Virus record (IMG/VR): IMGVR_UViG_3300034198_020069 | Span: 1-61,499 of that record | Source of the DNA: a virus | DNA length: 61,499 nt | Direction: 5' to 3' (one strand) | Shown here: positions 2,090 to 55,761 of the stretch, one piece after another | How the letters are laid out: each line of letters begins with the position of its first letter | How positions within the stretch are numbered: position 1 is the stretch's first letter | Program-made: the position numbers and the translations under genes | The notes under the pieces: model-generated | What the model was told of the DNA's origin: nothing | What the model saw: only the letters and a program-made list of their open reading frames with translations | Database searches by the model: none

Positions 2090-3913
2090 TTATTCATACT
2101 GTTTGTAAATACCTAAAATTTGAGGAACTATTTCATGTCTATGATTTTGTTTCAAAGAAATTACTTTTACTCCTTTAACATTACTTTCTAATGTTTTGAA
2201 GAATGATATTCCTGAATTCTTTTTATTTATTAAGTCTATTTGACAAACATCTCCACAAAATACCATCCTTGAAAATTTACCTAACCTACCTATCATTAAT
2301 TCAGTTTCTCTATTATCAATATTTTGACACTCATCTACTATAACAAATGAATTAACAAAAGTTCTACCTCGAGCAAAGTTAATGGGTAATATTTCTATTT
2401 TTTGTTCTTCAATTAATTTATCTATAGCGATTTTATCATATAAAGTATATAGATTAGAATATATAGGAGCTAACCAAGGATCCATCTTATCTTTTATATC
2501 TCCCGGGAGATATCCTATGTCTCTAGAAGCACCTACCGTAGGTCTAGTAATTATAATTTTTTCAATTTCTTTATTGAATAGTAAATCCAAACCTATTTGA
2601 CATGCGAGTATTGTATTATGTGTAACTATAAAATTATTAGTAAGATATAAATGTGAATCTGAGTCAACTAATATACAAACAGCTTCATCATGTTTTAAAA
2701 ATTCTATCTTAGATATACTTCTATTTAAAATATTTTTACTATCTGTTATTTTTTCTTTTTTACGAGATAATCTAAATACCTCAAATCTTAATTCATTATC
2801 AAAATTTATACATATTCTATAATTAATTGCGGTTAATTTATATTCTTTTTCTCCTTTAGCTTTATATTTACCTTGCTTTTCTTGAACATAACAAACTCCT
2901 CCTAAACTCTGAACTAAAAATACTACATCATTTTTTAATTGTTCAGATGTAGTATAAAAATATATACCTGAAGATTCTCCTTTATTAGTTCTAAATTTTG
3001 TAGTTTGTACCCATTCGTCAGTATCTAATAATCCTTGAAGGATCCCTAATCTAGTAGGAATATCATTTATTAAATACTCTTGAGGGATAAATTTATTAAA
3101 ACTATTGGTTCCTATTAAATTATATTCTTTTAAAAATTTACTTAGAGTATTATATTGGATTGGAGATTGATTTTTTCTACTAGTTATAGAATATTCTATT
3201 TGTTCTCCATATTTATTAACACCTGATTTAGGATATAAAATTAAATTATTTTCATCACACCAAGTTTGAAAATATTGAATTAATTCAGGATCTTTGTTAG
3301 TTAATATAGGAGTTGAATAACTCAATGAACCATCTCCTATAAGACATCCTAAAATATAGGGATCTATATTAACATTTTGAGGTTCAAATTGAGTAATTCC
3401 TTGTTGAGGTATAAACCATTTATCTTTTTTACCCTCTAAAAGACCTTTTTCTTTAATCTCTTTTAAAGATAAAGTTTGATATTTTTGATAATTAATATTT
3501 AATGAACCTGTTCTGTTATATTTTCTATGTAAATTACTTCGTTTTATAACATTCCATAAATGTTCTTCACAACAGTTAGCTGTAGAACCGTCTGAAAATG
3601 TTATTTTGTATATATCTTTAGTACCCTGAGGGTAGATATTTAATACTTTAACAGGTTTTCCTTCTTCAGATATTACAAAATCTCCAGGTTTAATATCTCC
3701 TATTCTTTTAGATCCATTAGGAGTTATAACTAAACTATCTAAATCTTGGGCTTTTCCTGAACCCGCGATTCCTTGAAGTAATATTACTGTATTGTTTAGT
3801 ACTTCTTCTTTAGCTTGTTTCTGCTCTTCATTTAAAGGTATTTTAAATTTGATAGGATTTTTAGGTTTACGTTTTTCTTTGAATACTTCATCTTGATAAT
3901 TGTTTGAGGCCAT
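2090..3913 (-). CDS. phoH: PhoH-like ATPase interrupted by an intein
   Basis: 607 residues. The exteins (1-54 and 434-607) join to give a 228-residue PhoH-family P-loop ATPase, the normal phage size. The Walker A reads GIAGSGK|T across the junction and the Walker B is SFVIVDECQN. The family is widespread in phages of marine and Bacteroidota hosts; RNA or phosphate-stress roles have been proposed but not settled. Residues 55-433 form an intein with a LAGLIDADG nuclease, listed separately. Splicing must occur for the Walker A loop to be continuous, so enzyme activity depends on the intein. Confidence 0.92.
   Translation of the reverse strand: MASNNYQDEVFKEKRKPKNPIKFKIPLNEEQKQAKEEVLNNTVILLQGIAGSGKAQDLDSLVITPNGSKRIGDIKPGDFVISEEGKPVKVLNIYPQGTKDIYKITFSDGSTANCCEEHLWNVIKRSNLHRKYNRTGSLNINYQKYQTLSLKEIKEKGLLEGKKDKWFIPQQGITQFEPQNVNIDPYILGCLIGDGSLSYSTPILTNKDPELIQYFQTWCDENNLILYPKSGVNKYGEQIEYSITSRKNQSPIQYNTLSKFLKEYNLIGTNSFNKFIPQEYLINDIPTRLGILQGLLDTDEWVQTTKFRTNKGESSGIYFYTTSEQLKNDVVFLVQSLGGVCYVQEKQGKYKAKGEKEYKLTAINYRICINFDNELRFEVFRLSRKKEKITDSKNILNRSISKIEFLKHDEAVCILVDSDSHLYLTNNFIVTHNTILACQIGLDLLFNKEIEKIIITRPTVGASRDIGYLPGDIKDKMDPWLAPIYSNLYTLYDKIAIDKLIEEQKIEILPINFARGRTFVNSFVIVDECQNIDNRETELMIGRLGKFSRMVFCGDVCQIDLINKKNSGISFFKTLESNVKGVKVISLKQNHRHEIVPQILGIYKQYE
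2615..3751 (-). other. class 3 intein with LAGLIDADG homing endonuclease
   Basis: 379 residues inserted between Lys and Thr of the PhoH Walker A. It begins with Ala (AQDLDSLVITPNG) and ends FIVTHN before extein Thr. Block B has H118-L-W120, block F has C413 in AVCILVDSDSHLYL, and Thr431 precedes His-Asn. Together these are the W-C-T triad that defines class 3 inteins, which use the block F Cys instead of a first-residue nucleophile. Two LAGLIDADG helices (LGCLIGDGS about 188-196; LQGLLDTDE about 292-300) indicate a potentially mobile element. Confidence 0.88.
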
Positions 3914-46725: not shown

Positions 46726-46800
46726 TGGAAGTTATGAGAATCGAACTCACCTCAAACTGATTGCAAATCAATCTCGCCAAACCTTGGTATATGAACCCCC
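46726..46800 (-). tRNA. tRNA-Cys(GCA)
   Basis: Acceptor GGGGGTT pairs with AACTTCC with two G-U pairs; anticodon loop TTTGCAA; T-arm GTGAGTTCGATTCTCAT. A complete fold. Confidence 0.88.
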
Positions 46801-47865: not shown

Positions 47866-47947
47866 CGGAGGTCAAGAGACTCGAACTCTTACAGCTGTTA
47901 CACCCTAGCGGTTTTCAAGACCGTGTACCACTCCTTTGGGGACCTCC
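47866..47947 (-). tRNA. tRNA-Ser(UGA)
   Basis: Acceptor GGAGGTC/GACCTCC perfect; anticodon loop CTTGAAA; long variable arm; T-arm AAGAGTTCGAGTCTCTT; discriminator G. Confidence 0.92.
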
Positions 47948-48868: not shown

Positions 48869-48897
48869 ATTTTATTTAATATTTACCAATATGTCAA
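48869..48897 (-). promoter_or_regulatory. sigma70-like promoter candidate for RNA N4
   Basis: The minus strand reads TTGACA, 17 bp, TAAAAT, followed within 7 bp by the start of the pseudoknot RNA. This spacing is E. coli-like and differs from the early family elsewhere. Chance occurrence in AT-rich DNA is possible. Confidence 0.35.
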
Positions 48898-48906
48898 AGA
48901 ACAAAA

Positions 48907-51336: not shown

Positions 51337-51369
51337 TAAAGATAAGTTAAGGGATTTGGTAAGCCAAAC
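51337..51369 (-). promoter_or_regulatory. early promoter for the RecA-fold ATPase
   Basis: GTTTGGCTT, 20 bp, TATCTTTA followed by TATCATAATAAG on the minus strand, 24 bp before the start codon. Confidence 0.8.
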
Positions 51370-51818: not shown

Positions 51819-51838
51819 ATCAATACATATTATATAAT

Positions 51839-52024
51839 TTATTGATATTCATCATCTGATATAGAAGCAGCGTCTAATTCATTACGAATTTTTAACATAT
51901 AATCCTCATATCTAAAATCCCAATAATGATCATGTTTTAAAGAATTATCATCTTTTAGATATTCTAAGAATTTTACTCTAATATTGTTAGGCAAATCTTC
52001 AGCCCATTGTTTAGCAGTTTTCAT
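51839..52024 (-). CDS. small hypothetical protein (61 aa)
   Basis: It begins MKTAKQWAEDLPNNIRVKFL; helical, acidic at the C-terminus, with HDHYWDFRYEDYMLKI in the middle. It is preceded by a late-type TATAAATA element and is located directly upstream of the endolysin gene, 20 bp apart. Function is unknown. Confidence 0.6.
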   Translation of the reverse strand: MKTAKQWAEDLPNNIRVKFLEYLKDDNSLKHDHYWDFRYEDYMLKIRNELDAASISDDEYQ

Positions 52025-52026
52025 AT

Positions 52027-52035
52027 TTATAAATA
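52027..52035 (-). promoter_or_regulatory. late promoter-like element
   Basis: Palindromic ATATTTATAAATAT immediately before the 61-aa gene, the same as the element at 40648. It would make the endolysin gene late-expressed, as expected for lysis. Confidence 0.45.
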
Positions 52036-52045
52036 TCTAATTTTG

Positions 52046-52132
52046 AAGTCAGGACAGGATTCGAACCTGTAAAACCTCCATGTAAGATAAAGGGGGGAGG
52101 TATGATATCTGTTTCATCAACTCGCTAGTACT
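52046..52132 (-). pseudogene. degenerate tRNA with enlarged anticodon loop
   Basis: It keeps a perfect T-arm (ACAGGTTCGAATCCTGT) and a D-arm-like GCGAGTTGATGAAACAG. The anticodon stem CCTCC/GGAGG encloses about 16 nt instead of 7, and the acceptor halves (AGTACTA, CCTGACT) scarcely pair. Its 5' end overlaps the 3' end of tRNA-Leu by 4 nt. It is a decayed tRNA, or one with an insertion in the loop. Confidence 0.6.
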
Positions 52133-52210
52133 TCTGGCCGGACTCGAACCGGCACACCCTAAGGCAACAGATCTTAAGTCTGTCGTGTCTACCAATTTCA
52201 CCACAGAAGC
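52129..52210 (-). tRNA. tRNA-Leu(UAA), normal variable arm
   Basis: Acceptor GCTTCTG/CAGAAGT; anticodon loop CTTAAGA with stem CAGA; variable arm of about 13 nt; T-arm GCCGGTTCGAGTCCGGC. Confidence 0.92.
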
Positions 52211-52216
52211 AAATTG

Positions 52217-52290
52217 TGGTCCTTGTAGGACTTGAACCTACGACCCACGGATTATGAGTCCGTCGCTCTAACCATCTGAGCTAAAAGACC
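52217..52290 (-). tRNA. tRNA with CAU anticodon (Met or Ile2)
   Basis: Acceptor GGTCTTT/AAGGACC; anticodon loop CTCATAA with stem CGGA; T-arm GTAGGTTCAAGTCCTAC; discriminator A. The third CAU tRNA of the window; not an initiator. Confidence 0.9.
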
Positions 52291-52292
52291 TT

Positions 52293-53020
52293 ATCTTCCT
52301 GATACCACTCAGGCTCGCACAATGTGTCTACACTTATCTTTTAAGTTTAGGTGTTCTAGGTATATTAATACACACCATTTTTCAACAACTACTACAACAA
52401 TATTACTACTGTTGAGGCATAAATAAGATTTTTAACGGACTGAAAATGTAATTACCGTTTATTTATGCTGCCACCATTATTGTTACTTAGGTTATATACT
52501 CCATTCAATCTACAATCCTGACAGTCATATCAAGTATAACATACATCAGTGGGATAGTATTTTCACAATAACTTTACATTCTTCTACTTACTATTTACCA
52601 CAATATTATAATGTGGTCAGTATAGAATATTATCTAATGTTTTGTAATAAAGTATTTTCGAAATATTTACTTCGGAACTATAATAACTTCTCCATTGAAG
52701 TTTTCCTTTTATTACAAAACAATTAGACATGAGATTGATATTTGTGTTAAGAGTTAATTCATGTAGCCACACCTTCCATCCTCTCTTTAAGTTGTGTACG
52801 GTACTTAGTTTCTCTTATCCCAATCAGAGAAACAACACAATTTGTAGTAATAAAACATTTAAGCCTTTTACTGTACAAGACATGGTAGTACTTAATCCAA
52901 TTATTACTACAACTTTTTATGTGAATTACATTTTAAATTTCTGTTTGACATAGTAAGACTTATAATAATTCACAAAGGTAAATATCAAACCTAATTTCTT
53001 TCAGAATTTCAATGAACGCT
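52293..53020 (-). ncRNA. long array of structured RNA (N5, about 730 nt)
   Basis: No credible gene, but dense perfect stems: GCATAAATA/TATTTATGC (52417, 52460), CCACA/TGTGG (52598, 52612), a 13-bp stem at 52639-52651 with 52708-52720 enclosing AACTTC/GAAGTT, ACATGA/TCATGT (52727, 52759), TTGTGT/ACACAA with TTTCTC/GAGAAA nested (52792-52840), a 12-bp stem at 52842-52853 with 52901-52912, and GTGAATTA/TAATTCAC (52921, 52966). It lies between two tRNAs under an early promoter at 53161. Confidence 0.65.
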
Positions 53021-53024
53021 TTCG

Positions 53025-53098
53025 TACTCCCTACTGGACTTGAACCAGTGACCTTGATGATATAAGCATCCTACTCTAACCAACTGAGCTAAAGGAGC
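53025..53098 (-). tRNA. tRNA-Ile(UAU)
   Basis: Anticodon loop CTTATAT gives UAU, stem GATG/CATC; T-arm ACTGGTTCAAGTCCAGT; acceptor GCTCCTT/AGGGAGT; discriminator A. UAU-type Ile tRNAs are uncommon in bacteria, which normally read AUA with lysidine-modified CAU. Confidence 0.88.
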
Positions 53099-53160
53099 AA
53101 ATAATATTTTAAAATATACTTAGCCAATCAATCATATCTACCGCTTCAACTTTCATGATA

Positions 53161-53193
53161 TAAAGATAATATTCAAATTTTCAAAAGCCAAAC
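53161..53193 (-). promoter_or_regulatory. early promoter for the Ile(UAU)/N5/second tRNA block
   Basis: GTTTGGCTT, 20 bp, TATCTTTA on the minus strand. Downstream is a 15-codon frame (MKVEAVDMIDWLSIF) before the tRNA, which I list only as a possible leader peptide. Confidence 0.75.
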
Positions 53194-53227
53194 ATTTTTT
53201 AAAACTTCTTTTTTCTAATCTTGAGAT

Positions 53228-53258
53228 TTTGAACCACCTATTTATTAGGTGGCTCAAA
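53228..53258 (-). terminator. hairpin terminator after the 94-aa gene
   Basis: A 13-bp stem with one G-T pair (TTTGAGCCACCTA with TAGGTGGTTCAAA, 5-nt loop) lies 15 bp beyond the gene's stop. The T-tract is weak but the stem is very stable. Confidence 0.7.
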
Positions 53259-53273
53259 TCCCATAGCATCTTA

Positions 53274-53558
53274 CTATATTGAAATATTCATGCAGCAGAA
53301 ATTCTTAGCTCTGTAACTTGTAAACACTTTCTTAGTGCCTGTACCACTCTCACCTTTTTTCCAAAATGTAAATTTGATGTTAACACTAACCATAGTATCG
53401 AGTTTAGGATCGTTAATATATTCAACATCAGTTACCCAAATTTTAGATACTTTTCTATTATCCTGAGCAAATCTAAGCAACGTTTTAGAAAAGATCATTA
53501 AATCTTTAACACTCTCAAATTTTTGCTCTAAACCGTCTTTGAAATCTAAATCCATCAT
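53274..53558 (-). CDS. small early protein (94 aa)
   Basis: It begins MMDLDFKDGLEQKFESVKDL; a mixed alpha/beta domain with KIWVTDVEYINDPKLDTMVS and FTFWKKGESGTGTKKVFTSY. One early promoter and one terminator make it a single-gene unit. I do not recognise it. Confidence 0.6.
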   Translation of the reverse strand: MMDLDFKDGLEQKFESVKDLMIFSKTLLRFAQDNRKVSKIWVTDVEYINDPKLDTMVSVNIKFTFWKKGESGTGTKKVFTSYRAKNFCCMNISI

Positions 53559-53576: not shown

Positions 53577-53609
53577 TAAATATATGTATATATCTTTGGG
53601 TAGCCAAAC
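53577..53609 (-). promoter_or_regulatory. early promoter for the 94-aa gene
   Basis: GTTTGGCTA, 20 bp, TATATTTA on the minus strand, 18 bp before the start codon. Confidence 0.78.
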
Positions 53610-54417: not shown

Positions 54418-54680
54418 TATTGTTTTGTTATTAATCCGTCTTTTTCAAGCATTATTTTTAAACTATAATAAAGAGCAACTGTTGCTTCTTTACTTAAGGG
54501 TAATACAGTTTGAAGTATGTTCCTATTGAATGTATAACTACAAGGTAATGGATTTTCCCCTTTAAATAACCTTCTAAAAACAATACGATAACTAGTATCT
54601 TTATAAGGATATATCCATAATCTTCAATTCGGGTATTTAGTAAATATTCCCAAATCACATGATGTGATTTTTATTTCCAT
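54417..54680 (-). CDS. small early protein interrupted by one in-frame UGA
   Basis: ATG at 54680 opens MEIKITSCDLGIFTKYPN, then TGA at 54626-54624, then the same frame continues RLWIYPYKDTSYRIVFRR for 68 more codons to TAA. The stop overlaps the next start as TAATG, and an early promoter sits directly upstream, so the full 87-codon frame appears to be the real gene. UGA could be read through, often as Trp, or be a nonsense mutation or sequencing error. Confidence 0.55.
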
Positions 54681-54684
54681 AACA

Positions 54685-54717
54685 TAAATGTATGATGAAA
54701 TTCTCGGAAGGCCAAAG
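54685..54717 (-). promoter_or_regulatory. early promoter giving a nearly leaderless transcript
   Basis: TTTGGCCTT, 20 bp, TACATTTA on the minus strand. The -7 box ends 4 bp before the ATG at 54680, so transcription would start at or next to the initiation codon. Confidence 0.75.
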
Positions 54718-54719
54718 AA

Positions 54720-54740
54720 AGCCTGAAAAGATTTCAGGCT
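54720..54740 (-). terminator. terminator after the 153-aa gene
   Basis: Perfect 9-bp stem AGCCTGAAA/TTTCAGGCT with a 3-nt loop, 5 bp from the gene's stop, then TTTCTTTGG on the minus strand, which is already the next promoter's upstream box. Confidence 0.85.
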
Positions 54741-54745
54741 CGCGT

Positions 54746-55207
54746 TTATCCCATTTGGGTAAATACTGCCCCACATCGTTTGCTTTTCTCTTTCATTATC
54801 TTATGACCTTCATTTGTGTTTGGAATTCGAATAAGTCCATGCGTTGCATGACTAAAAAGCCCGAATGTAACTTCGAATGAACCTATGGTTGAATTAGGAT
54901 CAATTATAAAATGTCCATGTTCAATAAAGTGTTTAATGTTATCACTTTCCTTCATTCCGTTGCTTAAGTACTGATCAAAATCAACACGTACAAAACCCGT
55001 GTCGGAAAGCGAAGAGTGATATGTGATTTCCTTGAAGAAATTAACACCTCCTGTATTGTAACAAACGTAGAAATTATTGTCTTCGCTTTTATAAAATGTA
55101 GGTTTATATTTCATGTACATCTCCACTTTTTTAATCCATTCAGCTGGGTTGTAGCCATTTATCTCTGAATTGATTACTTCTTCTGGTGTGGTGGTTGTGA
55201 TTTTCAT
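54746..55207 (-). CDS. early protein (153 aa)
   Basis: Start chosen at 55207 (MKITTTTPEEVINSEINGYN); an upstream ATG at 55288 would read through the promoter. The middle YKSEDNNFYVCYNTGGVNFF and the end FSHATHGLIRIPNTNEGHKI are a compact alpha/beta fold. Codon and base use are richer in GC than most of the window. Not recognised; a single-gene unit. Confidence 0.6.
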   Translation of the reverse strand: MKITTTTPEEVINSEINGYNPAEWIKKVEMYMKYKPTFYKSEDNNFYVCYNTGGVNFFKEITYHSSLSDTGFVRVDFDQYLSNGMKESDNIKHFIEHGHFIIDPNSTIGSFEVTFGLFSHATHGLIRIPNTNEGHKIMKEKSKRCGAVFTQMG

Positions 55208-55228
55208 CGTCTCGCGTTTATTATGATA

Positions 55229-55260
55229 TAAATATAAGATAAAAATCTTAGAAGGCCAAA
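55229..55260 (-). promoter_or_regulatory. early promoter for the 153-aa gene
   Basis: TTTGGCCTT, 20 bp, TATATTTA then TATCATAATAAACG on the minus strand, 21 bp before the start codon. Confidence 0.8.
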
Positions 55261-55341
55261 AGAGTGTTATATTAAAGATATTGTTCAAGTTTATCTACCA
55301 CACTGCTTTATACTAAATCATTATTGGAAACCGTAAATAAG

Positions 55342-55761
55342 CTAATCTCGCTGACCAGCATTTTTAGTAATCCTCTCAAAGAAATTGTCATCAGGTGGAA
55401 CCCAAGTTTCAATTATCTGTAAAACACGATATGCTACTTTATCAATATCATCAAATCTTTGACCGACAATTTTGATGTTTGGGTATTTTGTTTCGTCTGG
55501 ACTTTCAATTTGAATAATGACCTGTTTCTCCCAATCTTCTGATGCTTTACCATAATAACCTTCAAATTGACTTTCAAGTGTTATTGCTCTTAACGTATCA
55601 AATCTATAATGTCATGTTGAAGAACATTCTGGGAGTAGTCCATCATCTTCAATGCTTAGATTTATCCTATTATTATCAATAGACTCAACTTTTATAATAT
55701 CATTGAATTCGTTTGTAACGAAGTTTCCAATACGAAGATCGTTAGCTTTTATCTTGTGCAT
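55342..55761 (-). CDS. early protein interrupted by one in-frame UGA (139 codons)
   Basis: ATG at 55761 opens MHKIKANDLRIGNFVTNEFN, an IGNxV-type opening common in Bacteroidota phage proteins. TGA at 55614-55612 (codon 50) follows CSST, and the frame continues HYRFDTLRAITLESQF to TAG. Both halves have coding character and no frame shift. The next residue context suits Trp. The gene overlaps the upstream 89-aa gene by 20 bp. Confidence 0.55.

Follow-up and report, generated by a model that had tools for sequence, protein, structure and literature searches.

Two stable RNAs that are not tRNAs, RNA C and RNA D, lie inside the tRNA cluster of phage T4; both are much shorter than the region described below. 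GOLLD is phage-borne, protein-free, often longer than 800 nt and often found near tRNA islands, and ROOL, a large RNA of prophages and phages, is located near tRNA islands as well (PMC12286853). In the virulent phage K, the non-coding intergenic transcripts lnc001 and lnc002, of about 0.6 and 1.2 kb, were found beside tRNA genes; lnc001 has its own early promoter, and both RNAs were likened to GOLLD and ROOL by their place and abundance (PMC9241854). An ORF-less transcript of about 800 nt was reported for ICP1 (PMC7567579).

The stretch of DNA analysed here, to which we refer as the window, is an uncultured virus record of 61,499 bases, from a phage of lake type. It encodes a major capsid protein of the T4 type (Gp23, E = 6.6e-70) and carries nearly all of its genes on the minus strand; the style of its promoters, TTTGG ... 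TATnTTTA, suggests a Bacteroidota host. ARAGORN called 21 tRNAs in the window, arranged in two groups. A tRNA-Ala(TGC) whose D-arm is unusual (about 46726-46800) and a tRNA-Ser(TGA)-like gene (about 47866-47947), both on the minus strand, were not called by ARAGORN and lay under the Rfam threshold. Elsewhere in the window, a 607-aa PhoH-like ATPase ORF (2090-3913, minus strand) appears, from its translation alone, to contain an intein; the candidate insert starts after GIAGSGKAQDLDSL... and its end reads ...NNFIVTHNT.

The region of interest (52291-53023, minus strand) fills the 733-nt gap between tRNA-Ile (anticodon tat, 53024-53098) and tRNA-Met (cat, 52216-52290) and has a GC content of 29%. 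Both flanking tRNAs were confirmed on the minus strand and are co-oriented, tRNA-Ile by ARAGORN and Rfam RF00005, tRNA-Met by ARAGORN and Rfam. The same two methods identified tRNA-Leu (taa, 52128-52210), which shares the operon with tRNA-Met and tRNA-Ile. The earlier note had called the region the longest gene-free stretch, which holds except for a gap in the crude gene calls at 54418-55611, where a plausible 180-aa ORF sits. The region is indeed non-coding, as had been claimed, with a coding signal in no frame. Codon scores trained on this genome ranged from -0.05 to -0.14 in all six frames, and those of the neighbouring small genes from 0.23 to 0.69. Reading TAG or TGA as sense still gave no long frame, and when stops were masked, searches of the frames against Pfam and PHROGs returned nothing convincing (best E 0.074). 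In the region, cmscan with all of Rfam 15 found no match at the gathering score; at E values up to 10, a scan of 51820-53280 found no match to a family of the GOLLD or ROOL type.

Directly upstream of tRNA-Ile and the region, a phage-type promoter, TTTGGCTTTTGAAAATTTGAATATTATCTTTA, is present at 53161-53192 on the minus strand, with the motif TTTGG-N15..26-TATnTTTA. This motif occurs at 13 sites on the gene-bearing minus strand of the window and at none on the plus strand, and therefore very probably marks a class of promoters that belongs to the phage itself; the same strand bias upholds the promoter that had been placed at 53161. Examples of the class (TTTGGCT-N-TATnTTTA) are found on the minus strand at 53608, 53192, 50515, 49622, 49076 and 47281. 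No site with the motif lies inside 52291-53023, the next one being at 51368, and no intrinsic terminator was found within the region. With a promoter upstream, none inside and no internal terminator, the region is probably transcribed together with the flanking tRNAs. A minus-strand transcript from 53161-53192 would then contain tRNA-Ile, the region, tRNA-Met and tRNA-Leu, and 3' processing of tRNA-Ile, combined with cleavage by RNase P at the 5' boundary of tRNA-Met, would release a single RNA, about 730 nt long.

On the minus strand, the region contains four long-stem modules and two short hairpins, so that the six or seven modules counted previously were an overcount. The four stems named in the earlier note are all present and perfect, at lengths of 14, 12, 10 and 9 bp, three of them one base pair longer than had been stated. 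Module M1 (52920-52974) is closed by a 9-bp stem (52920-52928/52966-52974) with AAATG at its 3' junction and a P1 pairing probability of 0.93. Module M2 (52842-52912) has a 12-bp stem (52842-52853/52901-52912), its length unchanged, with junctions TTGGA and AAATGT and a P1 pairing probability of 0.95. The 14-bp stem of module M3 (52638-52651/52708-52721; span 52638-52721) closes a three-way junction, has AGGA and AAAATAC at its junctions and reached a mean P1 pairing probability of 0.90. Module M4 (52417-52468) combines a 10-bp stem (52417-52426/52459-52468), with junctions ACGG and AAAAATC, and an inner stem AACGG/CCGTT. The short hairpins are one of 8 bp, GTTTCTCT...AGAGAAAC, at 52808-52833 (pairing probability 0.99) and one of 6 bp, ACCACA...TGTGGT, at 52597-52617. 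In the full-length minus-strand ensemble, the P1 stems of the four modules and the two short hairpins all had mean pairing probabilities of at least 0.90. M4 and the hairpin at 52597 form well on the minus strand only, with pairing probabilities of 0.91 and 0.98 there and 0.36 each on the plus strand. All stems consist exclusively of Watson-Crick pairs, with no G-U pair, and inverted repeats at the level of the DNA would therefore fit them as well. The differences between the P1 stems of M2 and M3 are all compensated, but they were discounted as evidence, since compensation arises automatically when both stems are picked as perfect. An alignment of the four modules with MAFFT, which is not structure-aware, gave no useful count of covariation.

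The claim that stems of this length exceed chance was borne out with two kinds of control, dinucleotide shuffles and natural windows from the rest of the genome. Counts of perfect stems came to 4 (0.37 expected) for lengths from 9 bp upwards and to 3 (0.10 expected) for lengths from 10 bp upwards; neither count was reached in any of 3000 dinucleotide shuffles. Taken singly, a 14-bp stem had a p value of 0.0007. In none of 593 other 728-nt windows of the genome did as many as three stems attain 10 bp, whereas 45 of the 593 matched the region in its number of stems of at least 8 bp, a count that is not unusual for this genome. The excess thus resides in the long stems. A strong folding energy overall was not supported, the general excess being modest and one module an outlier. 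Local folding with a span of 100 gave z values of -3.6 on the plus and -3.8 on the minus strand, and 120-nt windows had a mean z of -1.1 in the region versus -0.4 elsewhere. The excess was concentrated in M3 (52638-52721; window z about -5): the sole outlying 120-nt window of the region, with z = -5.3, starts at 52621 (52621-52740), and several windows outside the region fold as low or lower. No window of the genome folds more extremely (z = -6.8) than that of a strong terminator-like hairpin near 48901, between tRNA-Arg and tRNA-Lys. The hairpin is directly followed by a boxA-like GTTCTTTGACA at 48892-48902 on the minus strand, which may be an antitermination signal of the tRNA operon.

The four modules share a signature at the junction of their stems. 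On the minus strand, all four carry AAAT in the heptamer that precedes the 3' arm (TAAAATG, AAATGTT, AAAATAC and AAAAATC), and GG follows right after the 5' arm in three (TTGGAT, AGGAAA and ACGGTA). Elsewhere on the minus strand of the window, the AAAT junction was found in 6 of 57 stems. AAAT and GG were combined in three of the four modules, compared with 1 of the 57 other minus-strand stems and 6 of 1666 stems of related loci. As the motif had been spotted before it was tested, random quartets of stems from the genome were scored for any shared 4-mer in the same flank; about 2.5e-4 of them had one, a value that is corrected for the choice of the 4-mer and for which flank length and word size were chosen by the analyst. 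The shared junction favours the earlier idea of repeated modules and supports the view that the four are diverged copies of one hairpin, by which a function is not proven. The two strongest modules both fit GTAATAANNGGA-N30..60-AATNNTTTATTAC, a pattern with two matches in the window and none in 100 shuffles. Its four matches in IMG/VR lay within genes or across a gene start, and none was a comparable RNA.

Homologues of the region were sought by blastn in named phages, about 175 loci and about 75 whole virus records, and only tRNAs and AT-rich noise were returned. With its nearest relatives the phage has 71% of the RecA/KaiC-like protein in common, and for the terminase the figure is 78%. Blastn against the tRNA arrays of these relatives, whole or with flanks, found nothing resembling the region; ORF-poor gaps in the arrays held tRNA-like elements, reading frames or few stems. 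That no homologue turned up argues only weakly against the existence of one, and it leaves the region without support from conservation or covariation. Nor were further copies, as expected of a dispersed repeat or insertion element, found in its own record, which is possibly a fragment.

A tRNA-Leu-like element, which we call the chassis, recurs in tRNA arrays of related phages and on four MAG contigs. Its two ends read 5' AGTCAGG TGGCGGAATGGTAGACGC and ACAGGTTCGAATCCTGT CCTGACT-A 3', and between them a hypervariable stretch of about 20-120 nt replaces the anticodon arm; acceptor, D-arm and T-arm are constant (AGTCAGGTGGCGGAATGGTAGACGC ... ACAGGTTCGAATCCTGTCCTGACTA). One scan yielded 25 distinct elements with a 5' mate, 54-169 nt long, of which ARAGORN called 3, and up to eight different ones occurred in one phage. 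They are located in loci L208 (5316-10240, plus strand), L212 (1214-1330), L239 (3747-4836), L267 (6088-6257), L288 (1531-1680), L290 (5004-5842) and L291 (1411-3042). A finder without restriction on the acceptor gave 31 tRNA-like elements with a length of 100 nt or more, and an exact AGTCAGG was present in 23. When the Rfam tRNA model was followed residue by residue on one element, acceptor, D-arm and T-arm aligned and the anticodon arm was skipped. The chassis thus looks like a tRNA scaffold with a variable RNA cargo. A second expanded type of about 153 nt has a tRNA acceptor and T-arm around a conserved middle (GAATGAGGGTAATTTG ... CCTTAATACTAGGATCGGAG). It was seen at six loci, L202 (3980-4132, minus strand), L256 (9271-9423, plus strand) and L258, L259, L260 and L262 (about 12086, plus strand), with a similar element in L198 near 3250 (minus strand), and it matched no recognised family. 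No published description of either type was found in the literature searched.

That the region itself is built from unusual tRNAs or chassis elements which escaped the gene finder would be in line with the several gaps of relatives that such elements fill, and with an unannotated tRNA-like element nearby (52040-52127, minus strand), whose positions 52047-52070 are an exact 3' half of the chassis. The 5' half, however, was absent from the window at up to three mismatches. No T-arm (TTCRA loop) with a paired acceptor exists in 52291-53023, and no tRNA was matched there at a relaxed Rfam threshold. The missing T-arms refute this explanation, to which we assign the least probability of all. Scarcely more probable is a decayed protein gene, for instance of a dNMP kinase or a homing endonuclease. 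Gaps in the tRNA arrays of relatives do hold open or possibly broken reading frames, and the exact 18-mer GCCTGAGTGGTATCAGGA of the region has one match, inside a T4 gp1-like dNMP kinase gene; a scan with another 18-mer, GAGGATGGAAGGTGTGGC, had none. We estimate, however, from the contig count, that about one exact 18-mer match would be expected by chance in such a collection. Neither tblastn of seven other, intact kinases, which aligned with no relic, nor the PHROG scans of all frames nor the negative codon scores supported a kinase pseudogene, and no Pfam relic was found. So far as it could be tested, a decayed gene is refuted. A titrating RNA of the CsrB/RsmZ type was rejected too, since GGA motifs are not in excess in the region (9 versus 8.4 expected).

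The reading that we tentatively prefer is a lineage-specific, structured non-coding RNA that would be co-transcribed with the tRNAs and released by tRNA processing. The freed RNA would be stable, and its junctions, repeated in four apparent copies of one hairpin, would most likely serve to bind a protein or RNA of the phage or the host several times over. Its chief rival, a serious if somewhat less probable one, is a fast-evolving spacer of the tRNA operon without function, in which template switching during replication or small duplications would have left perfect inverted repeats that are not under selection. The AT-rich composition, the perfect stems without G-U pairs and the absence of a homologue from every record searched are what such a spacer would give, and variable spacers and degenerate elements abound in the tRNA arrays of relatives. 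It accounts poorly, however, for a junction signature common to four independent stems and for long stems in a number that no other window of the genome attains, and 733 idle nucleotides are at odds with an otherwise tightly packed genome. Ranked third, and rather improbable in our judgement, are stems that act as processing signals, for instance RNase III sites, to split the precursor of tRNA-Ile from that of tRNA-Met and tRNA-Leu, the RNA in between being discarded. A single transcription unit in which long, irregular stems with a recurring junction motif separate two tRNAs could be read in this way. Most of the remaining tRNA gaps, in this phage as in its relatives, have no such stems, however, so that processing works without them, and four sites look redundant. 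Going beyond the structured non-coding RNA preferred above, one might see in the region a new class of long phage RNAs, with at least four paralogous hairpins, an NNGG / AAAT junction, excision from a tRNA operon and multiple binding of one partner; this stronger proposal we regard as unlikely.

When compared with the known long RNAs of phages, the region resembles GOLLD and ROOL in being phage-borne, placed beside tRNA genes, several hundred nucleotides long and non-coding. It differs from them in having no Rfam match at either threshold used, and from GOLLD also in that it has no demonstrable conserved 3' domain; by covariance model it is a member of neither family. To the phage K lncRNAs it is comparable in size and in its tRNA-adjacent place; those, however, were seen by RNA-seq, whereas the RNA of this region is predicted only. 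Blastn of the region against the phages collection taken as a whole gave only partial matches of tRNA type. The ICP1 transcript is likewise long, ORF-less and similar in size, but ICP1 has no tRNAs and no structure was claimed for its transcript. Our analysis presents the region as a candidate addition to the lncRNAs of phage tRNA islands. The large non-coding RNAs of such islands, GOLLD, ROOL and those of phage K, reach high abundance and are not known to have a function. If the reading preferred here is true, a further, unrelated RNA with a simple, repeated module would imply that convergent RNAs occupy the tRNA-island niche, and it would offer a small motif with which the binding partner could be fished directly.
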